DNA from: Diphasiastrum complanatum
Taxonomy: Eukaryota > Streptophyta > Lycopodiopsida > Lycopodiales > Lycopodiaceae
DNA length: 64,000 bases
Assembly: GCA_029204225.1 (NCBI GenBank)
Contig: CM055095.1
Span: forward strand, 15,654,049-15,718,048
Reading direction: 5' to 3'
Shown here piece after piece: positions 5,757-52,695 of this stretch. The translations under genes were made by a program, and so were the position numbers. Below the pieces are notes generated by a model that saw only the letters and a list, made by a program, of their open reading frames with translations, searched no databases and had not been told where the DNA came from. How positions within the stretch are numbered: position 1 is the stretch's first letter; each line of letters opens with the position of its first letter.

Positions 5757-8700
5757 ATTGGATAGTTACGCCAATATCTCTGCATTTGATCTCGAGCTCA
5801 CGTCTTTTACGTACCTGCATAAATTTAATGCAAAGTATGGTACATTTTGTATATAGATTATACTAGCAATTTTTGACAGAAACTATACAAAAGAATAGAA
5901 TGTTTATAGTTACTTATGAGTTTACCATTTGAAATGAATCTGAAGTTCGAAAGCATATCATCTTGTAGGAGCAACAATTCTTGTCTGACGTAATTTAGGC
6001 TCCAATCATCTTCCACCTCAACACATCAAAAGTGCATCATTGTATATTATTTCAATCTTTTTTTGCTTAGAATGTCCAGTGGCTTCCAAGTCTTGATCGA
6101 GTGGCACCCATTTACTCATGTTCTTTTTCCATCTTTGATAATGGAAGCATAAGCTCAACATTTGTTTTTCAATTTGATAGCGAAAGCGCATGGAAGACAT
6201 TTTAATTATGCATTCTATTTCTCCATCTGATTTTTTTTCCCAGCCTTCATCCATAAATTCAAATAATAAACTATCCGATAAATTTTTTCATACAAACATT
6301 GTTGGAGTTTTGTGTACATTGACACTTGAAAAGAAATTCACAAATATATTCAAAGAAATAAACCAACTCATTTGAACTGTTTATGAACCCGTGCTTATCT
6401 TCAATGAATTTTTTATATCATTATATAGTTTGCAACGAAATGATTCTGATACTGTAGCATTTGGAGCAATGTTGTAAAGCTACCTTTACAAGCTTTACTT
6501 CCGGCGCCATTGGCGCCAGCTATGTCCCCGGCGCCAGCAGCGCCCCTGCTGCTCCCGGCGCCAACAGCGCCGGCGCCGCTCCCGGCGCCAGTGTGACCAG
6601 AATCCAGCCGGCGCCAAGTTCCTATGGCTGAAAATCTTTGATCGGTTCTAACGGAGTCCAGAGAGCTCAGATCGATGTGCAATCACCTCACACGATCTAG
6701 GCATGATTAAAGGAAGCCTGGGGATCAATAAAATCTAGAGAGATAAAATGACTTTCTAGAAAGAGAAAATCCTAGAGAGAGAAAAAACGTGCTTTACCAG
6801 CTTGGGTAGAGTGCTTGGTATGAGGGGGGGCACCGAATCACACCAATACTATAGGGGAGTGCGGGTTGCGACTCAGGGCGAGCTCCAACCAAGTCTCAGC
6901 CTCCCTTGCTGGAATGTTGTCATGGCTCTCGCCTTGGCATGCTAGCGCCCCGGAGACTAGGGTCGGTCACACACTTGAAATGTAACCTTCTCAGATTTAT
7001 CAATAAAGTGGGATTTTCCTCAAACTGACTCTGATTACCTTCTGGGTTTCAGTGTTCGGTAAAAGCGCCAGTTGTAAGGCCGCTTTCAAAATTTTTAACT
7101 TGGCACATAGCTGAGGGTCGTATCCCGGGACGCCAGCGGTATGCCGTCGGGACCATTCGGTCCGTGGCGCCAGCGGTATGCTGTCGGGACCATTTGGTCC
7201 AGGAACTGGTTGTTTCCATATCTGTCGCGGCTTGTGGTTCTGAGTGTTCCTTGCATGAACGTGAATGGGTTAAGCTCTTGGGGAACGGGCTCTAACCTGT
7301 CGGCTGAGTTGGATGGCTTGCTTGGGTGGATGTTACCTGTTTATGTCTGGCGTGGCGCCAGGTTGGCTTCCAGCGCTCGTGACGAAGCTTTCAGTTGGTT
7401 AAGTCTGATGTAAGTCAGACCGCTTGCTTGGAATGGATGTTACTCGTTTGTAACGAAGCTTCGAGTTGGTTAAGTTTGATGTATGTCGGGCGGCTTGCTT
7501 GGAGGGAAGTCACCCACATCGGGACCCCCGATCTGGCATGGCGCCAAGTTGGGTCTCAATGTTGGTTTTCGGAACTTCATGTTGGTTAAGTCTGATCGTT
7601 GTTGGCGAGTTGGCTGCTTGTATGTCAAGTGGGTTTGGATGGCAAGAGTTGAAGGCTGGGAAGCTAAGTCGTGGTTCCTGGCTCCCTTTGGGATGCCTGC
7701 GCTACAAGCAACCCATTCATCACTTTCAAAACTAGGTAATGGAATTGGGACTATTTGCCCAAAATTTCCATTTATATCAAAAATGTACATTAATTCATAA
7801 AAGAAGATTCCGCAATCAACAAGATCTTTTGCAATTCTACCTCTATATTTCTACCTCTATATTGCAGATGTTTAATATCAGTGTGTACTACATCTAACAC
7901 ACTTGGAAGAGATCCACTTGGCTCCCATTCATTTATATTGGATGGATATAAATCTGCAAGAGAAAAATGATCAGATTTGCAAGTTTAGTAATAGATGATA
8001 AGGAATGACAAAAAAATCAAAGTATTATAATATATCAATACTCACAATTGTTTTTTTTGTGATCCTGACAGTAGAATCCTTGGAGGCTCGATAGATCAAT
8101 CTTCGTTGGTGCTAGCATCCTTCCTGCCAACACTCCCTGCTCTGTCTAAGTAAGAATGCCAAAATGGTTGCACAAGCGCGAGATATGTGCTCCCACTACA
8201 ACAAACTTCTTATGCTTGATCTAGTGCATAAATACTTTGCATGTAATAGAACCAAAGCATACTCATGGCTGACCTGCTAGAGCATCAATCAGGTAGCCAA
8301 AATTTTGTGCCAAAATTGTCGCATCAGCATCAGTAATCAAGAGCACCTGGATTGAGTACTTGCAGAAAAACTTCATCTATGCATCCCTCACCATGGTTAT
8401 CTTGTACCCTTTGCTAGTTACAAAGCAATTTGACAGAAAATATGTCGACTCGTCAATAGCATCCTTTGAAGTGACATTGGCTACCCCATCAGTTGGCAAC
8501 CTAAGAGCTTCAGAGAATACGGCTTCATTCACAGTAAAAGTGGTGTTTCGCAAGGTAACCTGGAAATCAGAGTCATCAACCGTGTGAATAGAGTGAACAA
8601 ACTCAGTGTTGATCTCTGACAACACGATTGATAGATCCACTTTCAAATTACTCAACCTGCAATGATCGAGTAAAGACTGAATTGAAGCAAGTCGAATAGA

Positions 8701-33909: not shown

Positions 33910-35459
33910 AAAGCTTAGCCTTCTCTAAACTTGATGTACATGGAAGGATCATAGTCACTTAGAACAAATCCAAGTGAGTTGAGTCTTGCATACCATGATC
34001 TTGGGGCTTGCTTAAGCCCATATAAACTTTTGAAAAGTAGGCAGACTTTGGATTCTTCACCATGCTTGATGAAGCCTTGTGGTTGCTCCATATATATCTC
34101 CTCCTCAAGATATCTATTGAGAAAAGCATTGGAGACATCTAGTTGGAACATTTTCCATTTGAAGTAGCAAGCAATAGAGATGATGATCCTTTTAGTCACC
34201 ATCTTTGCATATAGTCAAGGCCTTGGATTTGAGCAAATCCTTTTGCACATATCCTTGCTTTGAGCTTGTTGATGGAACCATCATTGTTGTACTTGATTCT
34301 AAACACCCATTTGCAACCAATAATATGCTTGTTGGATGGTGGATCCACTAGCTCCCAAGTGTTGTTCGTAATCAAATCATCTCTTGCTTCATAGCTTCAT
34401 ATCGCTCCTTTGAATAGAGTGCATCTTGCACACTTCTTGGCTCTTCATGAGAGATAAAAAATGCATAATTGGTGGATTCAACATCCACTTGCTTGTCTTT
34501 ATCAATGTATGATAGCCTCTTGGGCTTGGATCTCTCTGTCATGGATCTTCTAGGTGAGAATACATGAGGATGCTCCTCCTCAAACCAACCCCATCATATC
34601 TTGATTGTCATCAATAGAAATAATAGAAGATGCATCATGAGATGCCTTGATCTCGTCCCCATCCAAGGTAGTTTTTTGGTCTTCATGAAAAGTGACTTCA
34701 CTACTTTCAATAACCTTGGAAGTAGAGAGTATGTAGACTCTATAAGCCTTCTCGGTTGATGAATATCCCACCATAACTCCTTTTCTTAAGCTAGGATCAT
34801 CCTTCTTCCTTGTCTCCAAAGGAACATGAGCAAAGCAAACACATCCAAAGATTCTAAGGCGATCAATCTTAGGCTTCTCTTTATGTAATATCTCATAAGG
34901 TGTCTTTCCTCCAAGAGCAAGATGAGTGAGTCTATTGCATGGATAATTGGCGTAATTGGTGGCCTCTCCCCAAAAATCCTTAGGCAAGAATGCTTCAATT
35001 CTTAGAGCTTTGGCACATTCACATAGAACTCTATTCTTCCTCTCGGCCACCCCATTTTGAGAAGGGAAATAGGCACAAGAGAATTCTCTTTTGATTCCTT
35101 CTTGCTCACACAGTATTGCTTTTCAACAAGAGCTTTGAATTTGAGGAAATAATCAAACACCATAGCTTTTGAAGATAAAAGATACAACCATGTAAATCTT
35201 GTGCAGTCATCAATAAAGGTGACAAAACAAGTGGCTCCTCCCTTGCAGAAATGCACATACGAGTGCACAAGCTCCAATGGATGATGAGTCTTGATAGATC
35301 TTGGATATGGACTCTTATGTGACTTTGCAATAGCACATACTTGACAAGGCTTGAACTCCTTGGATAGTGTATTTGGCAAGCCAATTTCTTTGACCATAGA
35401 ATGCATAGATTTGAAGTTGGCATGTCCCAATCTACCATGCCATAAATCTTCTTTGGAAA
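33910..35459 (-). mobile_element. Ty1/copia fossil (GAG-pre-integrase, INT, part of RT)
   Basis: Minus-strand order: LWHGRLGHANFKSMHSM at about 35440-35390, integrase with FIDDCTRFTWLY and AERKNRVLCECAKALR (35050), then RT with FQLDVSNAFLN and SLYGLKQAPRSWYARL (34150-33960). It is closer to copia B than to family A. Gag, RNase H and LTRs are missing. Its right edge abuts the 261-bp LTR-like repeat at 35460. Several breaks. Confidence 0.85.
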
Positions 35460-35720
35460 TGTTAGGGCCATTTTCGGCAGGGGATTGAAACATCCTAAAA
35501 GGGTCAAGGGGCCCCACCTCTAATGGCGGTTCGGCCCTACGTGAGCAACAGAGGATTTGCCGCTTCCAACCCTGATGGCCTTCTCTATTGCCTCGTGCTC
35601 CCCAACCGATGAGAGTTTTCCAGGCTCTCAGAGATACGGTTGCAAGGAGGGGGTGCTGTCACTTTTGGTGCAATGATTCACTAGCTTTCTAGGTTTACGG
35701 TTCCATAAAACTTATGATCA
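35460..35720 (-). repeat. 261-bp LTR-like direct repeat, left copy
   Basis: Starts TGTTAGGGCC and ends CTTATGATCA on the plus strand. By hand comparison it differs from the right copy (41886-42146) at about 12 of 261 bases (~4.6%). The orientation is taken from the tRNA-like PBS at the right copy. Confidence 0.8.
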
Positions 35721-38700
35721 CTAATTTGGGTTAGGATCTTGCTAATATCTCTTTCCCCATTGAATTCGGCTTACAGTTAGTAAAAATCTTACATGGGCTT
35801 GAAACCGATTTATTGCTTATGATGTGCTCGTGGGGTGCAAGTAATACGCACCACTTTGTTTGATAAGCGGTGGTATTTTTGCCAATCGTCGGGTCTAGGT
35901 ATTTCGCTAGACAGTACCAACGGCAGCTGTGACTAGTGTGACACTTAACCAAGGTGGTGTTTTTCAACCACGGATGGTGGACGGCCCGCTCTGGTGTTTC
36001 ACAGAGGTCGGGTCCAATTGATATGCTTCATATAAAAACAGGAAAACGTTTCACAACTTGAAGATTTCGTATAGCCATTAATAAATCTAAATCAGCAAAC
36101 AGTAAAATACCCAATCTATGGTTCTTTTCGTAAAATGTATTCTAAATTAGTACGAAACAAGTCATTTACTAAACAACTTTTACTAAACAAGTCATAAATA
36201 AGCACTCATTGTTCTAATTACCCATGCCGCATTTGTTTATAAAATATAATGATTTCGGACTAAATTCAAATTTGTGTTAAAAATGATTCACTACAATGCA
36301 CAATCGGCCTATACTCTACGACAATCCATTCACTAGTTACGTAATTTCAATTATTGAACTCAAGCAAACAACGTTCCCATTGCAAGCAAGTGATTCTGAG
36401 TCCATACTACCGGTAAACCCACAAATACGCACAGACCTGATACTTCAATGTCTACTTGTTCAAGAAAAGAATCACAATCGTTTAGGTCCCAATAGGGGCA
36501 TGGCAAATGCGGAATTATTGAAATGATTAGGTCCTCACACAGTTACACAATGAATTCTCAGTATCCTACCATCCATTTAATGAACGAAAGCAAGTACGAA
36601 CGTCAAGCACCCACATTCCAACTGAAAGCAAGGTTAGTTCCAAATTGTGGTTAGTCGCTTGACGTTGATTGAGAGTTGATGAATATCATGCTTGGGTTTG
36701 AGGAGTACGTCGTGAAAGATGTATGCTTGAATCTTGATGGAAGAATGAATATTGCTTGAAAGGAGTTGGTGGGTTGATTAGAAATATTATAAATTCACAA
36801 CTACTTGTTTACCATTGGAGGGTAATGGTTACATTGCATGCTAATGTGTAATTGAGTGGTGAAGGTTTGATTATGAGTTTTGGTTGTTTGATAGACTACA
36901 TTGTGGATTGCATGGCTGGAATGATTTGGGGAGGTTTGCTTAAGTGAGTGATGGAGTGAAGTGAAGGGTTTGCATTAGTGATAGAGGTAGGGTTGACCTT
37001 TGCATGTGGGTATGTGGTTTCAATTGAAGTTGTTTGCTTTCCACGAGGTTAGCTATTGGTGGGAAACAAACCCAGTGATTTGAGAAGTGTTATTTGTTGC
37101 TTGTCCACTGTGTGATTATGCGCTTGATGTATTCATTGTTGTTCCTACGCTAAACTCATTGTCGTTTGGTTGTTTGTAAGTGAGTATGTTTGTTGATAAT
37201 TAATGGGCTTTGTAATTGGCAAATGTGTAAAGTCAGATGCTTGCTCAGTGAGCGAAAACTTGCAAATATGGACTATTCGGATTGAGGGTTTAGTTGAAGA
37301 AGCCCATTCCACGACCTTCATTGTCTATAAGCAGGGTTGCTGATTTTTTTGAAAGATCTGCTAGGCTCTGCTAACTGATTCATAGCCCTGTCTGCGGCGA
37401 CGAACCGGCTGGTTGCGGCCTGCCCACAGACCCACAGTCTATCAACGGCCACCTGCAGGGAAAACCCAACCATTTGTAGACCCTGCTGTTGCTCTACAAC
37501 CTCAACATTTGCGGAATGAACTCTGCCTAAGGCCTGTCCTACCTGGTACGACCAAAACAGTCCATTTGCAGGTTCTAGATCCCGGTCTACGACAAAAATC
37601 TAATGTAGCCTACTGTCTGCGACTGTTTCGACCTGCCTGCTCCTACTGCTCACTGCATCTGCGGCCTCTGTCAGACCTGTCTGCGGCCAATAGGCTGCTG
37701 CCACGTGGCCTACAACTGCCAAAACGGGCCCCTGGCCTGCTGTTTTCCTCTGTTTAGACGTGTTTAGCTCTGATGTGGCCTGCTATCCTCTGCCTGCGGC
37801 CCACAGACCCTCGCTGGTGTAGCATCTGTTCTATCTACATTTTTCAGATCTGTGACAGCACATAGTCTGCAGCTAGTTTGCAGGCCTGTGATCCTCTTTC
37901 AGTCTCTGCCTGTGCTGTGGAAACTTGTGTGGCACTCCGTCTTAGCCTAAATTCTTCCATAGTGATCTATATCAGGGTTTTCCAAGGCTAATTCTTTGAT
38001 TTCGTGGACAATCCTACAATCTGTGAGTGAACAGCAAGTGGCAAGCGAAACATGACCTGGAGTTTTAAAAGTGGCATTCATGACTAGTACTTCAATGATT
38101 TCTAGTCACCTATGCTCACACTGAGGTATGGGTTTACCTCACATCGATTTTTTTTATATACGTTATGCTCGTGTTTAGCCAAGCAGTCCAGCCAAGCACT
38201 ACCATTGAGTGACATTAGCCACAAGAAGCAAGACATACAAGCTAACCCAACCACTAACCATAACATGGAGTAAGAACATTCACACTCACTAACACCAAAA
38301 TAGAACTTAACTCCAAAGGAGAACTAATCAACATTCTCTCTCAAACAAACAAGCTCTCAACATTCAACTCCCAAATGTACCAACTCTTAAAATTACTAAC
38401 ACACAAAAGTATTAACATTTTAAATACAAGGAGTTGGCTCCTTCTTATAGGAAAATCCAATGGATCCCCTTCACAATGCCATCTTGTCATTCTTCATGCC
38501 CTTCAAGCCCTCTTTGTCATTTGTCCCCAACTCATTAGATAGTACACCTAGTGGCCTCCATAACAGAGTGGGGGACTGGTGCATTCAAGGCTCTCTTCCA
38601 AAAACTAGCCAAGATGCCATTTTTGTCAAAGGCTAGGCTAGGGAGGCCATTCAAGTTTCTCCTTTTGTACACCCTAGAAGCCCAAAATGTCAATGGCTAG

Positions 38701-41673
38701 TGGGTGTACCTCCCAATTTTTATAGCCTCCAAGGTGTTTTGGCATTTATTATCCAAATTTTGGGCGAGGCCCTTTTTCAACCCCTATTTTTAGTAGGCGG
38801 CCTTCGTTTTTCTTTGGGTACCTGTGTTTTTGGCCTTTCTTTGATTTTTCAAGGGCCGTGCACCTACTGCTCATTTGTCTGGATTTTTGGTCTGTTGGGT
38901 AACCACTTGGCCCACACATTTCGTTAATTGCCCATAAATTGTGCAAACTTTGCCGTTAGGGTTTTTGTGACTCCTTGACACTGAATCCATATTTTTCGGT
39001 CCCGTTTTTACCCGAAATTTTTCTTTCTCATTTTTTTCTTCTATGGTTGACTTTTTCAGCATTCATGACCAGGGCTCTCACGACAACACGGTTTCCCTGA
39101 AAAATACATTGAGTGATCATATATTAGTAAAAATGGACTGAGTACATCGTGAGATTTTAGCACGGTCATACCGGCTATTTTTTTACAACTGGCCAGTTTT
39201 TTGAAAAGTCGTAAAATATTTACTGGCCATTTCTAAGGCCGCAAAATTTTCTCTAGCCCCATTTAGGGTGGGCTGGGACCCAATTCTAGGTGGACCGGCA
39301 CTCTTGGCTCGGTCTTACAAAACTTGACCACAAAATATTGTTGACGGGTTTTTTTTTTTTGAAAAGTTAATTTCTTACTTTAAAACTGTGTCTAGCCACT
39401 TTAGGGACGGGCTGGGACCCAAATCTACGACAAATTTGTGCCAATTTTTCTCTACTAATTGGGTTTTATATGCTGGTTTTTCAGGTATTGCGAACTTAAG
39501 CTTCAATATTAGCCCGATTTTCCGTGCGAAAATATCGGCTAACAGTGGCGACTACCATTGGGTAGTATGGTCACCATACGGCGAACCCAGAGTCTCTAGT
39601 TTCGCAGACCAGCTCCTGGCGGTGAATCAAGTATAGTGGGCTCAGCACCCTTGCTAGGTGATGCTAACCACAGTGAGTGGGTGGGATGGCTTCAACAGCT
39701 TCCTACCCAAAGGTCATCGATTGAGCCCTTAGGGTCCATCTGCAACAGGATTGGATTTAGCCGTAGCATCTTTGAACAATTTGGTGTCTTCATACCTGCA
39801 TAAACCCACCTGTGACCTAACTGACAAATGCTCCCATTTCCATCAGTTGTAAGGCAAAGCCCACTTTCGGACCCATGCATGGAGGGATATGCAAATGCAA
39901 ATCTCAGGATTGGAGATAGGATGATATGGATGCAAGTCAATAGTATTATGTTGGGTGAGGCGTCACTCGTCCTCACAAATTGGTTCGAGATCTACTAGAT
40001 ACGGTTGAAGTCTTTTTCTTTTTTCATTTTTTTTCTTTTACTTTTCTCTCAGTCTTTCTTTCTCTTTCTTTTTCTGTTTTAGTAGGGCCCTTATGAAAGA
40101 TGGTTCCCGGTCAATGGATATGGAGAAGAATCTTCTTAGTTGTCTGATATCAGTAGGTGGTACTGATTCAAATGTATACATTCGTTGCAGATCATCCATC
40201 CCATCTGATCCAACTTTATGTACAAAAAGCATAAATAACCTTCAACAACTATCTCAAATGGTTTACTACTCAAAGAAGTAGTGACATTTCAAGCTTGTTA
40301 TCTCATTGCATGTAACCATCATGTGGAGACTCTCGGTTTTTCCCTTATCCATCACGTCCTGAAATTCTCCAATTGTCCAGTCAATCATGCCTTATCTATT
40401 GGGTGATGGAGTCACTCCCCACCCCACTGCATTGTTTCTATTTCCAACTTTTTCATTCTTACCCTCCCTTTTATGCTTCTAATCAAACACTCATGCCCAT
40501 GGGAGAAAATATGTTATGTCCTATGCAGCTCAGAGTATATGCAGAATGTAGGGGTATGGATGCATGAGACGGTCTTGCAATTAAATGTCCAAGCACATTG
40601 TGCCTACATGATGCAGTGCAGCATGAGTGAATGGAGTGAAGTCAACTCATTTGTGATATCTATGGATCACAATTTTCAGTAATACGTCTTGCCATTCTGT
40701 TGGCAACAGGTTCTGTAGCAGCAGGTGTTACGTTCACTAACGGTGGTTCTGTAGCGTCGGTTGGCTCAAGTTCTGATAGTTCTTCTATAGGTTCCAAGGT
40801 ATCATCCAAGTCCATTATAGGTGGGTGAGACTCATCATCTAAGGCTGGTGGGACAAGAAACCCATGATTGCTTCTTCTAAGCCCTAAACGCTCTCTCTGG
40901 GGATTTGAAGTCTCTCCGTGCAGTGCTCCCTTAGACCTGGGTTTCCTTGGTATACCTATGATGTCTTGTCTAGGGTGACACTAATGATTGCTGCATAATA
41001 TGTTTTTCACTTACGGATAGCAATCAACTGTCATTGCACATGTGTTTTGTGATTTTCCCAAGTTACCCCATAGGTCATCCACCCTTCGTTCACTAATACT
41101 GCATATGACCTAACTAACTCTACTTGGTCATTTTTTTGCTCAATCCTAATCCAACCGTACCCATGCATAGTTTTCCTTGGTTATTTGTACCATGTGCCGT
41201 CTCTACGGGATGCTAGGGTTGGTGGGTCATAATGTACTGATTTTCGACTCAGGGCTCTGGTTTTCACCTTTACCCTAGGTTTCACGAGAAACCCCATTGT
41301 CTAATATGTTCCGTCACTCTATAAACAATCTCTAGTAGTACTTGGCATCACTGTCTAAACTCCCTGCTGGTGAAAACTGTATGCAGTCCCTAGATTCTTT
41401 TCAGGTATTGGAAGCAGGATGTCCTTGGTGAAGTTGGATCATGTGCAGCTAGGGGTGGACTGCGAACTCATGTGTGGCAAGGCTCTAAAACGTATGTTCT
41501 AGGTGTGGGATCAACACACATTACTGTGTGATGCTAACCACTTCAACCTGTGATACTTGATATTGGTTTTCCGAAAACAACGTGTGCACTAGTAGCTTGC
41601 ACAACCATGTTATCTTGCGGCTGACGGTCTAAACAGTTGAATTGTTCACAACATATGCAATCTGAGACATATG
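35721..41673. other. Interior between the two 261-bp repeats, without recognised pol genes
   Basis: About 6 kb with no RT, integrase or protease motif seen on either strand, so any element here would be non-autonomous. From 37380 to 37830 there is a degenerate run of CTGTCTGCGGCC-like units. From 38000 to 40000 are AT-rich stretches and a segment at 39370-39700 with GAACCCAGAGTC-type sequence. Poly-pyrimidine (TTTCTTT) runs lie at 40015-40080. Confidence 0.4.
40660..40980 (-). other. Unrecognised open frame of about 105 codons
   Basis: A minus-strand frame without early ATG, acidic and proline-rich (PPALDDESHPP, DLDDTLEPIEELSELEP). It could be the N-terminal part of a gag-like protein of the element in which it lies, or chance. 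No family recognised. Confidence 0.3.
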
Positions 41674-41750
41674 AAATCTGTAGGCCATCGGTAGTATGAC
41701 TATCCTCCAACCACTATTCTCTTATCAGGTAACTCCCGGCAGACGCACCA
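41674..41750 (+). other. tRNA-Gly(TCC)-like sequence with 3' CCA, first copy
   Basis: Reads TCTGTAGGCCATCGGT, then an anticodon-arm-like CCTCCAAC, then ACTCCCGGCAGACGCACCA. The last 19 bases equal the 3' end of plant tRNA-Gly(UCC) plus CCA; the 5' part agrees in TCTGTAG, CCA and CGG and about 60% of the D arm. Plant tRNA genes do not encode CCA, so this derives from a mature tRNA. One base later a TGTTGG LTR-like start follows. It is too degenerate to be a working tRNA gene. Confidence 0.55.
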
Positions 41751-41809
41751 ATGTTGGACGTCTGGCGGGTCAAATAACATAAGCAACGTGCAAATGGCTA
41801 ATTCGTACA

Positions 41810-41884
41810 CTTCACAGCCCTACGTATAGATAATTGCCCTTCAAACAATATCCCATTATCAAATTCCTCTCGGCAGACGCACCA
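41810..41884 (+). other. tRNA-Gly(TCC)-like sequence with 3' CCA, second copy, adjoining the LTR
   Basis: Contains TAGATAATTGCCCTTC, which is close to the D-stem and anticodon arm of plant tRNA-Gly(UCC), and ends CGGCAGACGCACCA. After one base the 261-bp LTR copy starts at 41886. On the minus strand the sequence TGGTGCGTCTGCCG would be the PBS of an LTR element primed by tRNA-Gly, but the similarity continues across the whole tRNA rather than stopping at 14-18 bases. Confidence 0.55.
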
Positions 41885-41885
41885 A

Positions 41886-42146
41886 TGTTAGGGCCATTTT
41901 CGGTCGGGGATTGAAACGTCCTAAAAGGGTCAAGGGGCCCCACCTCTAATGGCCGTTCAACCCTACGTGAGCAATAGAGGATTTGTCGCTTCCAACCCTG
42001 ATGGCCTTCTCTATTGCCACGTGCTCCCCAACCGATGAGAGTTTTCCAGGCTCTCAGAGATACGGTTGCAAGGAGGGGGTGTTGTCACTTTTGGTGCAAT
42101 GATTCACTAGCTTTCTAGGGTTACGGTTCCATAAAACTTCTGATCA
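41886..42146 (-). repeat. 261-bp LTR-like direct repeat, right copy
   Basis: Same ends as the left copy at 35460, TGTTAGGGCC and CTGATCA. On the minus strand its CCTAACA end lies one base from the tRNA-Gly-type PBS, so it would be the 5' LTR. With the usual plant LTR rate of about 1.3e-8 per site per year, the ~4.6% difference between copies would mean one to two million years; rough. Confidence 0.75.
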
Positions 42147-42665
42147 CTAATTCAGCTCTCCTTGGGTCTTCCTCTGGAGGCTTTTGTTCTGTGAGATCGG
42201 TCACTGGCTATATCCCTTCACCTTTTAGAAGCATTTTGATCTTGAACTTCCATACGCGATAATTTACGCCATCAAGATTGATTGTAATCCTTGCTTGAAT
42301 TGTAGTAGCCACGTTGTATCTAATGAATTCACTTTGAAACCATGTTGTGAAATTGCTTAAATGCGGTGTGTGCACCTATTATGTGCGAAAGTGCGCTACA
42401 CAATGCATTAAATTACAAGGCCTAGATACGCTGCTACCAATCGCAGACAATGCAACAATCAATCAAATAACAATAGATGCAACGCACATATCACAATTGG
42501 AAGAACAGAATGTATTTGTATTTTGTTTTCTTTTGGGAGTGAGTCGACAGTGTAACGCGCGTTGGTGACCTATGCTCCTCTTACAAATCTATATCCTGCT
42601 TCATGCAGATCATTACTGCATTCTAGAATAAGCATATGTTCTATTGATTTCTGGTTGTTGACTGG
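42147..42665 (-). mobile_element. Ty1/copia fossil, family A, third copy (gag start, PBS, LTR piece)
   Basis: The minus strand shows the family A gag start (ATTCAAGCAAGGATTACAATC region, 42310-42150), a weak PBS near 42332-42343, and an LTR piece to about 42665 sharing GTGAGTCGACAGTGT with the one at 18.38 kb. Only the 5' end is present. Confidence 0.7.
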
Positions 42666-42671
42666 TGCTGT

Positions 42672-45600
42672 CTATATTCTTGAGACATAATCGGCAAGAT
42701 AATGTTGTTTACCTTTTTGAACCACAACTCGAAAACCAAATTCAGTCATTAATAGTAACCATCTTGCAATGTGTCTCGTATTGCATGTCTTGTTTACTAG
42801 ATAAAGCAATGGCTGGTGGTCGGTATATATTACAAAATGTGTTGCCATTAAATAATGTTGAAATTTTTTCACTAAAAATACCATAGCCAACGCTTCTCGT
42901 TCCGTTGTAAAATAATTCTTCTCAGAATCAGTCAGTTGTCGGCTAGCAAATATGATAGGGTAGTCCTTCTTGTATTCTCTTGGTTGCGTCAAAATTGATC
43001 TAGCATATTTTGATGCATTAGTATGCACATGAAACTCGATTGCCCGGTTTGGAGCTCATAAAATCAGTGCAGAAGCTAAGGCTTTCTTCAATTTCTCAAA
43101 TGCTTCCAACGTCTCAATTGGTACAATAGTCAACTTATATATAGGTCGTGCCAAATCTGCAAAAAATAGAATGAATATCCGATAATAATTTGCATGGCCC
43201 ATAAAAATATAAACTTCTCGAATTGTTTCTGGTGGAGGCAACTCCACAATGACCTTGATTTTGGAATAATTCGTAGCAATTCCATGTCTTGATATCACAT
43301 GTCCAAGAACAACTCCATGAGTAATCCAAATCTGACACTTTTCTGGATTCAAAAAAATTTGATACTTGCGACAATGTTCAAATACTTTTTTCAAACAATC
43401 CAGAGGGTCTGTATCAGCACTATGGACTCCAAGATCATCCAAGTAAATTTCAAGAAATTTTTGCAAATACTCAAAAGCAAATTGCATAACTCACTGAAAT
43501 GAACTTGGTGCATTACATAGTCCAAATGGCATAACTTTATAAGCATATGTTCCTCATTCTATTGCAAAACCTGTTTTATGTCGATCGGCAGGTGCGATTT
43601 TAACTTGGTTATAACCACTGAATCCATCCAAAAAATTATAGGCTTCCGCTCCAACAAGGCGATCCAATATTCTTTCTGTAAAAGGTAACGGAAGTGATTC
43701 TTTGCGCATTACTTTGTTCAAAGCTTTGAGGTTCACACAAGTTCTCATCTTCCCATTTTTCTTAGGAATGACAACAATTGGAGAAACCCACTCAATATGC
43801 TCAATTTCATAAATAAAATCTGCTTCTAGTAACCTTTGTAACTCCTTCTTGATAAGATCAGTGACATTCGGATTACAACGATAGAATTTGGTCACTTTTG
43901 GCACTGCATCAGGTATCAAGGGTATGGTATGCTCAAATACTGATGTAGGAATTCCTTTTAAATCCTTGTATGTCCAAGCAAAACCATTCTTATTAGGCAT
44001 AGGAATGTCGCTCAACTCTGAATTGTTATCTCGTTGACACATATATCCTACTGTACAATCCATAGTTTCAAGAGCTTGATTTCAATTAACATTATCTGTC
44101 TGAGAGTCATCGTGCACTCCCAAAGCTTTTACTGGTCGATCACAAGTATGATCCATTTTTGATGAATCATCATCTCCTTTTTGGACTACTGGTTTGATTG
44201 TCCAAGTTAATGGACCAACTTTCACTACACATGTTGGGAGTCGAGGCAATGCGCGTCGTATTAGTGAGAAACGAGCAGAATCCTCAGTACATGTAACTAT
44301 GTCTATCGTATTCAAATCAAATTCGAACGAATCGAATTCATCACTGGATCGAAAGACTCGATTCCATAGTCATGCACGAATTCACTGAGTTATAGATTTA
44401 GATTTTATGTGTGGAGGTGTAAAGCATCTAGAGACGGTAATTAGAACAACGAATTTGACTTATGCTATCAGTCACACGAATAGTTTAATCTACGAATAAT
44501 TTATCTGCAAGCATGAATCTATTTGAGCATGAATGAAATAAACATTCAATCAGAACACGAACGACTCGAATTATGGAACAAATATCAATTATTCACGAAT
44601 GATAACAGTTTGATTGTAGACAGAGTCACATTCTTTCTAAGACAATACTTTGTAGTAACAGAGATAAAGAACAAAACAATTGCACTCTAGATGTTCAATC
44701 ACTGACTCAATCCTCTAAGTGTTCAGTGTTCGATTCAAGATTCTAACTTCACAACTGATAAGTTGATGGGTATTTGCTCAAATGGCTAGCTAATTAAAAG
44801 AATGGTTAATCTGTACATTGCAAATTGGATTAATCCACTATGTGTTGTTGTTAGTCGTTTTCGGATAATATCGGAGTCCGTTGGAGATCCTACCTGATCG
44901 TGACAATGGTACAGTTGAGCCGCCTTTTGATCGATTCGACTTGAGAGTGACAAATGACCAGCTTATGAGCTCGAATTAGTCAAGGTTGCCAAATAGTCGT
45001 CAAGGTGGAATAGAAAATATTCGAGATGGCAGATAATAGACGTGGCAGAGTGGCTGAGTGGTCGAAAGTCAAAGTCATCGAAATGTTCGACGTGGCGAAT
45101 GTCGAATAGCTGAGGTGGTCGAACACTTTTGTGTTGTCAGAACTCTGTCACAATTTTTTTTGTATTTCAACAGACTGTTAGAAAACAAGTGTAATTTTAC
45201 AGAGCGTGCAAATGTATAGGTATTTACAAAAGTTAGTGAATGGACCTAGATTAGAAGAAAGTTAGGGATGGAGAGGATATGAATCCAATAGAACGCTCAT
45301 GATTTTCAAATGTAATTTTTCTGGTTGCCCAATTATGAATCACTTGCACAACTCGTAACCATGGACGTCCCAATAGAATATGATAAACTAATGGTGCTTT
45401 CGGTAAGTCCATTACTATAAAAGTAATGACAAACTGAACTCCAGCAATCTTGACAGGTATGTCTTCCACTATGCCTTTAGGACGAACTGTAGTCTACTGA
45501 TCAGCTAGCTTGACAACAAAAGCTATAGGATTCATTATAAGGCCCCATTTAGCACATAGCTTTGTTGAAATCAGATTAACTCCTGAATCTCCATCTATCA

Positions 45601-46764: not shown

Positions 46765-46769
46765 GGTAC

Positions 46770-49159
46770 TATAGCGTAGGCATCCCAAAGGGAGCCGGGA
46801 ACCACGAGTTAGCTTCCCAGCCTTCAACTCTTGCCATTCCAACCCACATGACATACAAGCAGCTAACTCGCCAACAACGATCAGACTTAACCAACTGGGA
46901 GTTCAGAAACCAACATTGAGATCTAACTCGGCACCATGCCAGATTGGGGATCCCGATGTGGGTGACTTCCCTCCAAGCAAGCCACCCGACATACATCAAA
47001 CTTAACCAACTCGAAGCTTCGTTACAGATGAGTAACATCCATTCCAAGCAAGTGGTCTGACTTACATCAGACTTAACCAATTGAAAGCTTCGTCACGAGT
47101 GCTGGAAGCCAACCTGGCGCCACGCCAGACTGAACAGCCATAAACAGGTAACTTCCACCCAAGCAAGCCATCCAACTCAGCCGACAGGTTAGAGCCCGTT
47201 CCCCAAGAGCTTAACCCATTCACGTTCATGCAAGGAACACTCAGAACCACAAGCCGCGACAGATATGGAGACAACCTGTTCCTGGATCAAATGGTCCCGA
47301 CAGCATACCGCTGGCGCCACGGACCAAACGGTCCCGACGGCATACCGCTAGCGTCTCGGGATACGACTCTCCGCTATGTGCCAAATCAAAAAGTTTGAAG
47401 CGGCCTTACAACTGGCGCTTTTACCAAACACTGAAACCCAGAAGGTAATTAGAGTCAGTTTTAGAAGGTTACATTTCAAGTGTATGACCAACTGTAGCGC
47501 AGGCATCCCAAAGAGAGCCGGGATCCACGACTTAGCTTCCCAGCCTTCAACTCTTGCCATCCAAACCCACTTGACATACAAGCAGCCAACTCGCCAACAA
47601 CGATCAGACTTAACCAACTTGAAGTTTCAAAAACCAACATTGAGATCCAACCTGGCGCCATGCCAGATCGGGGGTCCCGATGTGGGTGACTTCCCTCCAA
47701 GCAAGCCGCCCGACATACATCAAACTTAACCAACTCAAAGCTTCGTTAGAAACGAGTAACATCCATTCCAAGCAAGCGGTCTGACTTACATCAGACTTAA
47801 CCAACTGAAAGCTTCGTCACGAGCGCTGGAAGCCAACCTGGCGCCACGCCAGACTTGACAGCCATAAACAGGTAACATCCACCCAAGCAAGCCATCCAAC
47901 TCAGCCGACAGGTTAGAGCTCGTTCCCCAAGAGCTTAACCCATTCACGTTCATGCAAGGAACACTCAGAACCACAAGCCGCGACAGATATGGAAACAACC
48001 AGTTCCTGGACCAAATGGTCCCGACAGCATACCGCTGGTGCCACGGACAGAATGGTCCCGACGGCATACCGCTGGCGTCCCGGGATACGACCCTCAGCTA
48101 TGTGCCAAGTTAAAAATTTTGAAAGCGGCCTTACAACTGGCGCTTTTACCGAACACTGAAACCCAGAAGGTAATCAGAGTCAGTTTGAGGAAAATCTCAC
48201 TTTATTGATAAATCTGAGAAGGTTACATTTCAAGTGTGTGACCGACCCTAGTCTCCGGGGCGCTAGCATGCCAAGGCGAGAGCCATGACAACATTCCAGC
48301 AAGGGAGGCTGAGACTTGGTTGGAGCTCGCCCTGAGTCGCAACCCGCACTCCCCTATCGTATTGGTGTGATTCGACACCCCCCTCATACCAAGCACTCTA
48401 CCCAAGCTAGTAAAGCACGTTTTTCTCTCTCTAGAATTTTCTCTTTCTAGAAAGTCATTTTCTCTCTCTAGATTTTATTGATCCTCAGGCTTCCTTTAAT
48501 CATGCCTAGATCGTGTGAGGTGATTGCACATCGATCTGAGCTCTCTGGACTCCGCTAGAACCGATCAAAGATTTTCAGCCATAGGAACTTGGCGCCGGCT
48601 GGATTCTGGTCACAGTGGCGTCGGGAGCGGCGCCGGCGCCGGAGACATAGCTGGCACCGATGGCGCCGGATGTAAAGCTTGTAAAGGTAGCTTTACAACA
48701 CCAACCCTAGTCTCCGGGGCGTTGGCATGCCAAGGCGAGTGCCAGGACAACATTCCAACAAGGGAGACTGAGACTTGGTTGGAGCTCGCCCTGAGTCGCA
48801 ACCCGCACTCCCCTATAGTATTGGGGGGATTCGCCACCTCCCCTAATACCAAGTACTCTACCCAGGCTGGTAAAGCAATTTTTCTCTCTCTAGGATTTTC
48901 TCTTTCTAGAAAGTCATTTTCTCTCTGTATATTTTATTGATCCCCAGGCTTCCTTTAATCATGCCTAGGTCATGTGAGGTGATTGCACATCGATCTGAGC
49001 TCTTTGGACTTCGCTAGAATCGATCAAAGATTTTCAACCATAGGAACTTTGCGTCGGCTGGATTCTGGTCACAGTGGCGCCGGGAGCAGCAAGGGCGCCG
49101 CTGGCGCCGGAGACAATGCTGGCGCCGAATGTAAAGCTTGTAAAGGTAGCTTTACAACA
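46770..49159 (-). repeat. 3' LTR of the LARD-like element, split by a nested solo LTR
   Basis: The first part (46770-47492) carries the GCGTAGGCATCCC end, the second (48706-49159) the TTTACAACA end next to the purine tract. Together about 1.18 kb, as expected for the family. Confidence 0.85.
47493..48700 (-). mobile_element. Nested solo LTR of the same family
   Basis: A complete 1208-bp LTR (TGTAGCGCAGG to TTTACAACA on the plus strand) lies inside the 3' LTR of the LARD-like element. The five bases on each side, 47488-47492 and 48701-48705, are both CCAAC: a perfect target duplication. It must be younger than the element it sits in. Confidence 0.92.
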
Positions 49160-49740
49160 TCCACCCCACCTTTATAAAATCTGATGTCCTCATCTGATGT
49201 CAGATTAAAGTAAAGGTGTCTCCCAATTAAAATAAATATACATTTAAGCTACTTGGCACAGTACTCAATTCACTGGCCACTTTTTATTAACATTGAAGCT
49301 GGCACACCACAAGTCGGAGGCTCAGCTCTTTGTACTGAAAAATTACATAACTTGAAAATATCTCTTTGTCTGAGAAAAGCGTAGATTTTATATCGCTTAC
49401 GTAAAACCCAAGAACCTTATTAATTGGTGACAGAGGCCTTTCTGTGAAATGTTCGCCCTTGTCGCTTCTGACTTTTTGACTCTGGAACTCCTTTGACCTC
49501 CTGATTTCTCCTTGATGCACTTTGTGTTGAGCTCCCTGAGCTCCAGATTTGATCAGTTCCGCATAGGTATCAAGGCTCCCTGAGCCAAAGGATTTATCGT
49601 TTGACTGCCCACTTTATGGTCCACTTCGTGCCTTGTTGCTTCTGCACCTTGATTTCTCTCCTTTTTCCAACTTTATCTTGATACTTTTCCTTCTTGGCTC
49701 TTTAAGGTAGGCAACAATTGAGTACTCCGCAATGCACCTC

Positions 49741-50114
49741 TCACTTAGCTTGAAGTAGCTCTTTGAATCAGCCCAAATGTAACCACTGACCTCGTGAAGA
49801 GCCAAAGGGTCGCACCAGTTTGATCCGCATACGAACTATCTCTTCGCGTTTGTTTGAAGCACCATGTCCGTCGCGCAAAACTCGACTTTCACAATTCCAT
49901 CACTGGTCAGTCGCCTCACAGTCAAAACAAGAAGTGTACATCGAGCTTGGCCTCAAGTAGCTCTCTTTGAATCAGACACATGCACCCAAAGTTTGCACTA
50001 GTCCGATCTCAACACGAACTGTCTCTTAGCGTCCGTTCGAAATACCAAGTCTCTCATGCAAGACTCAACTTTCACAGTTCCTTCATTGATCAGTTGCCTT
50101 ACACGTAACACAAG
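49741..50114 (-). repeat. Two imperfect ~185-bp tandem units in the LARD interior
   Basis: Unit 1 (49741-49931) and unit 2 (49938-50114) share AAGTAGCTCT..TTTGAATCAG, ACGAACT.TCTCTT and TTTCACA.TTCC.TCA motifs in the same order. Non-coding. Confidence 0.75.
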
Positions 50115-51498
50115 CCAACGTACTCATATGTTTCCTCATCATTGTTGGTCCAGAGAAAGCCTATAACAAACTTTCCATTCCGCAACAAAAGCTTGTCAAC
50201 TTATTAGGTCCAAAGTTCCCAAGTCTCCTCGTGTGAGTATGTCTAGGTCACCCTGAATTTGCCCCCGTTGTGATCAACTTTCATTCAAAATTTGCCCCAA
50301 GAGAGAGGTGTGTGTGATAGTTCCCCTCTTGCTTATAAAATCAGCTGACCGGACTTAGAGTAGAGTTCTTTGGACACAAAGCCTTTCCAACACTTTGCTT
50401 CCCATCTGCTAGGATTATGGCTTGGTCCAACTTGTTGCCAATCTCTGAAGAGGATCCTAGTCTTTCCTCTTTGAGGAAAAACCCAACTGATACTGGATAT
50501 CAGCCATGCTCAGTGAGTTTTAGTTCTGAAGGTGGCCATCCCAAATGAAGACCAACTGCTCCATAGAAGATCTCCCCTGAAATAGCCCTTTCCAACTTTT
50601 GACTTCCTGCTTGCGTCTGGTGGGCGTTGTCGCAAATGAAACTAACCCAAGAAATAGGCTAGCCATCCATCCTTTGCAAACATTGAGTCGTTTTGTTGCC
50701 GTTCACGTGCGAGTACTTGAACTGCAAATCCGCCCCACAGATTCTGTAGTCCTCTTTGTTTGATGGTATCAGCCTTCAAAAGAAAAGTTCCTTCTCGAGC
50801 CATCAGCTCCTTGTATCACAAGCAATCATGCAAACTAGACAAAGCACGAGTACTAAGACTCACCACAAATACTTGCAAGCAAGACACTCAGGCAGGTTTA
50901 CTAACAGGTAACAAAGACAAGGTCCCCTTTGAGACGGTCCTGCCAACGGACCTTCGCCTGGCCGTGCCCATACAAATCGATCACAGAATCAGCCCACATA
51001 GGACACCCCTCCAACTATCCGTGCTTTCACCATTAAGCAGCACATTGCCTCAGTCACGCCCCACCACTTTTTGGTCGATAGCCCTTATATCTAAACGATC
51101 GGCAGCTATCCCGCACCGTCAGCTAAGCACCCGTGCTTTACACCCGAATTCGAGCAGCATCTCTGTATCAATGGTTAACCTGTACAGTTCGAATATGTTG
51201 CCCCACACCCCACAAGGCATAGACCATGCTTACACCAACCTAATGGCAGCACACTGCCTCATCTATCCTACGTGCAGACAGCGCCAGGCCTGAACCTCGA
51301 GAACTGACTGTGCTTACACCTCAAGGGCAGCACCTTGACTCATCAAGTCCCCTGTTCTATCGACCACCCCGATCGTGGATGCACCCGTGCTTACACTGTG
51401 GGCAACACCTTGCACAACAGTTGTCTTGATGAACCCCAAACAGTGGCCATTTCCGTGAGATCCGTATAGCTGACCGGCCAGTCGGCTCTGATACCACA

Positions 51499-52695
51499 TG
51501 TAGCGCAGGCATCCCAAAGGGAGCCGAGAACCACGACTTAGCTTCCCAGCCTTCAACTCTTGTCATCCAAACTCACTTGACATACAAGCAGCCAACTCGC
51601 CAACAACGATTAGACTTAACCAACTGGGAGTTCAGAAATCAACATTGAGATCCAACCTGGTGCCATGCCAGATCGGGGGTCTTGATGTGGGTGACTTCCC
51701 TCCAAGCAAGCCGCCTGACATACATCAAACTTAACCAACTCGAAGCTTCGTTACAAACGAGTAACATCCATTCCAAGCAAGTGGTCTGACATACATCAGA
51801 CTTAACCTGGCGCCACGCCAGACTGGATAGCCATAAATAGGTAACTTCCAAGCAAGCCATCCAACTCAGCCGACAGGTTAGAGCCCGTTTCCCAAGAGCT
51901 TAACCCATTCACGTTCATGCAAGGAACACTCAGAACCACAAGCCGCGACAGATATGGAGACAACATGTTTATGGACCGCATGGTCCCGACAGCATACCGC
52001 TGGCGCCACGGACCGAACGGTTCCGACGGCATACCGCTGGCGTCCCGGAATATGACCCTCAACTATGTGCCAAATCAAAAAGTTTGAAGCCGCCTTACAA
52101 CTGGCGCTTTTACCGAACACTGAAATCCAGAAGGTAATCAGAGTCAGTTTGAGGAAAAGCCCACTTTATTGATAAATCTGAGAAGGTTACATTTCAAGTG
52201 TGTGACCGACCCTAGTCTCCGGGGCGCTGGCATGCCAAGGCGAGTGCCAGGACAACATTCCAACAAGGGAGGCTGAGACTTGGTTGGAGCTCGCCCTGAG
52301 TCGCAACCCGCACTCCCCTATAGTATTGGTGGGATTCGCCACCTCCCCTCATACCAAGTACTCTACCCAGGCTGATAAAACACATTTTCTCTCTCTAGGA
52401 TCTTCTCTCTCTAGAAAGTCATTTTCTCTCTCTAGATTTTATTGATCCCCATGCTTCCTTTAATCATGCCTAGATCGTGTGAGGTGATTGCACATCGATC
52501 TGAGCTCTCTGGACTTCGCTACAACCGATCAAAGATTTTCAGCCATAGGAACTTGGCGCCGGCTGGATTCTGGTCACAGTGGCACCGGGAGCGGTGCCGG
52601 CGCCGATGGCGTCGGGAGCAGCAGGGGCGCTGCTGGCACCGAGGACAAGCGCCAGTGGCGCCGGATGTAAAGCTTGTAAAGGTAGCTTTACAACA
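51499..52695 (-). repeat. 5' LTR of the LARD-like element
   Basis: 1197 bp, TGTAGCGCAGG to GCTTTACAACA on the plus strand, with the PBS two bases to its left. It has fewer GGCGCC palindromes than the solo LTR at 6.5 kb. Confidence 0.88.

Follow-up and report, generated by a model that had tools for sequence, protein, structure and literature searches.

Probable inherited copies of a complete primer tRNA-Gly(UCC) in LTR-retrotransposon leaders of Diphasiastrum complanatum

The 64,000-nt stretch of Diphasiastrum complanatum DNA analysed here (the window; C4:15654049-15718048 in the 1.74-Gb host genome, G000) contains two tRNA-Gly(UCC)-like sequences in tandem, directly beside an LTR-like repeat. 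We consider it likely, with a probability of about 0.68, that both are copies of the entire primer tRNA, inherited and decayed, in the leader of a minus-strand LTR retrotransposon, and that they stem from a lineage in which the primer was read through, the product transferred and older copies rewritten. Across the host genome, comparison of sequences indicates that whole-length primer-tRNA sequence, often in tandem, is systematic in the retrotransposon families.

As the earlier note had reported, the 19-mer CGGCAGACGCACCAATGTT stands at 41737-41755 and 41871-41889; no third place in the window matched it at ≤3 mismatches (100 shuffles: mean 0.00). The two copies are 79% alike over the 52 nt up to and including the end of the 19-mer. 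Copy 1 (41679-41750, plus strand) spans tRNA nucleotide 6 to CCA with 70% identity to the host tRNA over 73 columns, lying in tRNA sense on the plus strand and hence as the complement of the element’s RNA; copy 2 (41816-41884, plus strand) spans nucleotide 9 to CCA with 72% identity over 71 columns. Within copy 1, an inner PBS-type 18-mer, CTCCCGGCAGACGCACCA (41733-41750, plus strand), matches the 3’ end of the host tRNA exactly. The spacer separating the copies (41751-41815, plus strand) begins with A plus TGTT, resembling an LTR end. The outer PBS (41867-41884, minus strand), complementary to the 3’ end of tRNA-Gly with 1 of 18 positions mismatched, is 1 nt away from a repeat identified by self-comparison (41886-42152, minus strand), which would be the 5’ LTR of an element on the minus strand. 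Nothing tRNA-like was seen at the outer end of its partner, the putative 3’ LTR (35458-35726, minus strand). The pair (35458-35726 and 41884-42152) is 95.5% identical over 269 nt, which bears out the claim that the right-hand copy adjoins an LTR repeat. Since the minus strand reads LTR and then TGGTGCGTCTGCCG, the element’s RNA would be complementary to the tRNA here, as expected of a PBS. Two LTRs and a PBS beside the 5’ LTR were thus found. Inspection by eye gave no clear match to a target-site duplication or polypurine tract, the repeat borders being uncertain, and eight internal pieces of the element contained none of the transposon domains sought (gag, protease, reverse transcriptase, RNase H, integrase). 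ARAGORN called no tRNA across the window, nor did Rfam return a match in 40000-44000.

The leader of the window element (41000-41660, minus strand) is homologous to those of L050, L055, L013, L102, L042, L082 and others, with 73.5-93.6% identity over 615-668 nt and L050 as the closest (93.6%). L126, which continues inward from the L082 leader, has open frames with strong matches to RNase H and integrase, with integrase last, an order as in Ty3/gypsy, along with capsid and protease matches below the curated cut-offs; no reverse transcriptase domain was detected in the frames scanned. Elsewhere in the window, an open frame at 35002-35658 (minus strand) leaves the LTR-like repeat and enters a GAG-pre-integrase domain (E 3.4e-11), marking the left flank as copia-like, and long repeats in direct and inverted arrangement, ~85-94% identical, lie at 46768-52695 and 6470-7706.

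We took the primer to be plant tRNA-Gly(UCC) and sought its sequence in the host genome. Eight gene loci (L094-L101) are 97-100% identical to the host form, five of them completely, and in 0/8 is the gene followed by CCA. The first 19 nt (5’) of the plant form appear as a wheat small RNA in a passage of PMC5411081. When the bodies (nt 1-57) are aligned to the host tRNA, 31 of 52 letters agree in copy 1 and 31 of 49 in copy 2. The earlier picture of a sharp PBS with a decayed remainder holds. With a single tRNA body lacking the PBS letters as the query, the resemblance was not significant (copy 2, E 1.8; copy 1, no match). A first body profile (nt 1-57) had the window among its source sequences; the repeat run, with a body-only profile from relatives and the window excluded, recovered 41679-41713 (E 6e-5) and 41829-41853 (E 2.6e-4), the next place in the window scoring E 0.052 and the reversed window E 0.24. 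Because this left-out profile is significant and the single-tRNA query is not, we judge the similarity beyond the 18-nt PBS, which the earlier note had seen in the ~55 bases preceding each 19-mer, to be real, though the window alone makes a weak case.

In the host genome, CGGCAGACGCACCA occurs at 412 sites (reversed control: 0). One hundred of these were analysed together with L102 and with 32 rows from another 16 tandem loci; the resulting 133 rows fell into 39 clusters, of which one representative each was scored. In anchored alignments with the host tRNA, the body beyond the 18-nt PBS beat all 60 shuffles in 18 of the 39 clusters (88 of 133 rows), including those of both window copies; 16 of the 18 passing clusters extend to tRNA nt 1-9. 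An earlier run with 42 clusters yielded z >5 in 16 and all 100 shuffles beaten in 18. The other 21 of the 39 clusters had no tRNA body above shuffles, which counts against the whole-primer explanation. The body-only profile (nt 1-57), built from the set including the window, found 92 matches, 77 of them followed by a PBS within 40 nt at ≤3 mismatches, as compared to 620 of 20,000 random places. A full profile returned 163 matches, the best in the reversed control having E 0.81. The PBS pattern gave no matches in viral contigs.

Tandem arrangement is recurrent: PBS pairs 100-130 nt apart occur in tandem 27 times genome-wide (control 0). By the full profile, arrays comprise seven copies at L009, five at L056 and four each at L015, L039, L060 and L074, with copies ~120-150 nt apart. 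The spacers, to which that of the window is similar, consist of a few letters followed by TGTTA, TGATA or the like, resembling LTR ends, and many contain GTCTGGCGGG or a near variant.

A separate observation concerns the opposite strand. At eight loci, tRNA-Gly from nt ~1-6 to 46-55 is present in the sense of the element RNA, on the strand opposite to the PBS copies, with 82-89% identity and in homologous context throughout (L103, 1501-1555; L104 and L105, 1501-1554; L122, 120-72; L123 and L124, 136-91; L086, 1533-1581; L077, 1419-1467). In L103, L104, L086 and L077 the distance inward from the PBS copy to this stretch is some 340-460 nt. Sequence of this kind could pair with the antisense copies.

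The most telling single element is L102 (C19:13074208), in which a whole 72-nt tRNA, CCA and one A precede an LTR start of the L010/L020 type. Its body is identical to the host tRNA at 54 of 57 positions. The adjoining 100 nt of leader are 91-97% identical to those of the sisters L012, L020, L042, L075 and L082 (the mis-anchored L053 row was left out), and since the sisters are 88-95% identical among themselves, the L102 leader is no outlier; on the LTR side identity to the five sisters is 79-96%, with L020 the best. The sisters have one decayed body in common; aligned with that of L102 it needs 8-12 gap columns and agrees at 38-43 of 54-56 letters, and the fresh copy begins and ends where the sisters’ old copy does. 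We read L102 as a probable in-place replacement by fresh whole-primer sequence, seen in one element. As the host tRNA-Gly genes do not encode CCA, this triplet would have been added to the primer after transcription, making this one element the best evidence that a whole primer, including the post-transcriptional CCA, was copied into a leader. The junction may alternatively be a misassembly or the outcome of recombination with another element. A genome-wide search for ACCCGGGTTCGACTCC plus PBS plus CCA at ≤3 mismatches returned only L102 and L059, its other six matches being tRNA genes; that there are just these two fresh places with T-arm and CCA counts against our preferred explanation. L059 was considered as a second in-place rewrite and dropped, its leader being unrelated to that of its LTR family.

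The window’s own copies appear to be older. Copy 1 is identical to the L050 copy at 53 of 58 positions, and copy 2 agrees with L052 at 50 and with L060 at 49 of 55 positions, in each case with the outer copy, so both belong to old types common to other elements and seem to have been inherited as such, rather than reflecting two events in this element. Their bodies agree with each other at 29 of 55 positions and jointly depart from the tRNA at nine columns, mostly in the T-arm block, which suggests a common origin for at least that part. Of the proposal that whole primer tRNAs were copied twice by read-through, the whole-copy idea therefore gains from the relatives, above all L102, while ‘twice’ gives way to old, shared types.

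How such copies might arise can be sketched from what is directly visible, namely the full tRNA with CCA in the shared leader of L102, the recurrent bodies and arrays, and sequence past A58 at the LTR ends of tRNA-iMet elements described below. Plus-strand synthesis would sometimes pass A58 and reach the 5’ end of the primer tRNA; upon second strand transfer, the whole-tRNA complement would be retained in the leader. Later read-through products could anneal to the old copy and rewrite it in place, and misaligned transfer or unequal recombination could expand it into tandem arrays of tRNA copy plus ~60-nt spacer. The window’s old copies would have arisen by the same route. A leader already bearing the tRNA complement would let a read-through strand anneal and finish transfer, so that read-through would be tolerated and the copy rewritten. 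Somewhat short of even odds, and hence tentatively, we propose that the entire primer tRNA is inherited and repeatedly rewritten in this way, forming arrays of up to seven copies that provide a long annealing site and make the m1A58 stop dispensable.

An unlikely alternative is that a whole-tRNA complement was acquired once, long ago, and that selection has since preserved it for its pairing with the primer’s D and anticodon arms, which would aid packaging or initiation; Ty1 and retroviruses are known to make extended contacts with their primers. Derived letters are indeed common to tandem copies and families, and across clusters the D and anticodon arms are best kept and the T-arm least. Bodies are also better kept than leader flanks: between 17 clusters, the median z was 2.70 for the body and 0.08 for the leader flank, and among 136 cluster pairs z exceeded 3 in 63 for the body, 12 for the leader and 46 for the LTR side. 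Better-kept bodies count towards the rewriting scheme as well, in which selection may also play a part. Transitions that keep G.U pairs were commoner at first sight (60/412 vs 36/422; p 0.007 by Fisher’s test), 13 of 16 clusters showing the excess, but it vanished per position (19/30 vs 16/27, p 0.79), and clusters are not independent. Ancient acquisition moreover fits poorly with the fresh copy that L102 carries at the old copy’s place.

A quite improbable route would have leader copies originate at outer LTR ends: a primer retained at the 3’ LTR end, or its copy, would have been joined to other DNA and have entered leaders by later recombination. Copies of a second primer illustrate its first half. 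The sequence AGGATCGAAACCTGGCTCTGATACCA, which we take to be a 26-mer of tRNA-iMet, has 95 places in the host genome at ≤3 mismatches (20 exact; control 0); some of those without CCA, among them ATATCA places, may be tRNA genes. Eighteen of 20 fetched loci match the tRNA beyond any of 100 shuffles, with end points at many positions and three (L127, L132, L141) reaching nt 1; with L146 (cut short, without CCA, possibly a tRNA gene) and L144 (a palindrome) set aside, 16 of the 18 have read-through. The copies (L127-L145) vary in length, carry CCA and adjoin several LTR ends. Their LTR sides are alike in 10 pairs and their upstream flanks in none among 18 loci, whereas leaders of ordinary members of one such family (20 of 547 places) are alike in 100 of 190 pairs; all 20 of these members have PBS runs of 12-15 nt and no longer tRNA copies. 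We infer that the iMet copies are outer LTR ends at which the primer was copied and then end-joined to other DNA. They thus appear to document read-through past A58, as distinct from inheritance in a leader, and were rejected as leader copies given the unrelated flanks and the short PBS runs and mostly shared leaders of ordinary members. L059 likewise lacks leader homology, as does L125 among the loci compared, and both would suit an outer-end origin. In L102, conversely, the borders of the fresh copy are those of the old copy within a shared leader, for which annealing of tRNA sequence to tRNA sequence is the simpler account.

Two further observations concern iMet sequence: L144 has iMet PBS and tRNA sequence arranged as a palindrome, as a read-through strand that folded back might leave, and the iMet PBS-type GCTCTGATACCA occurs exactly at 1777, 2955, 10880, 51485 and 54216 in the window (five places vs 0.02 expected).

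Least credible of all is a tRNA-Gly-derived SINE end beside an LTR, the alternative offered by the earlier note, or a chance resemblance. The sequences do lie in tRNA orientation, and a search of the window with one tRNA gave nothing significant. But the copies end in a CCA that genes do not encode, directly beside LTR-like starts in many families, and preservation is poorest in the T-arm, where the B box resides; at the loci compared, the kept A and B boxes, separate body and tail and lone insertion expected of a SINE were not seen. Chance is countered by the shuffles beaten in many clusters, the PBS following most profile matches and the left-out profile scores. We therefore discarded the SINE reading and retain that of inherited primer copies.

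Passages of PMC13191261 set out the accepted scheme: plus-strand strong-stop DNA normally ends before m1A58, and an unmodified primer tRNA is copied to its 5’ end, active products ending only at 58, 55 and 54. Full copying by the HIV-1 reverse transcriptase likewise reaches the primer’s 5’ end, but is described there as an unproductive dead end, which counts against our explanation; L102 has a full copy within an inherited leader. The same passages, describing Muthuswami 2002 and Fukuda 2021, attribute a primer over-extension sequence to lentiviruses and spumaviruses. This PBS-downstream complement of the primer past A58, which lets over-extended plus-strand DNA transfer, has a parallel in the complementarity directly past the PBS seen here, decayed in the window and fresh in L102; in those viruses the stops concerned are at nt 55 and 54. 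An LTR-retrotransposon study cited in PMC5371799 asked the same question, with the opposite outcome judging by its title. In plant LTR retrotransposons, a PBS beside the 5’ LTR similarly matches a tRNA 3’ end (Neumann 2019, PMC6317226); that survey required a tRNA 3’ end to be matched over 12 bp or more no further than 50 bp from the LTR, and its pertinent passages do not name tRNA-Gly. In the open-licence PMC literature we found no account of leaders that contain whole copies of a primer tRNA.

Against a scheme of arrest at m1A58 and unproductive full copying, a natural lineage here bears whole-length primer sequence in many families. With one copy that looks freshly rewritten, this makes the fate of primer read-through open to study in genome sequence. 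Annotation restricted to the 12-18 nt of a PBS would miss whole-primer copies, and the extent of read-through may be recorded in the differing end points of the iMet copies. Taken at face value, the findings suggest that reverse transcriptase at times copies the primer into the element in full, beyond its last 18 letters.
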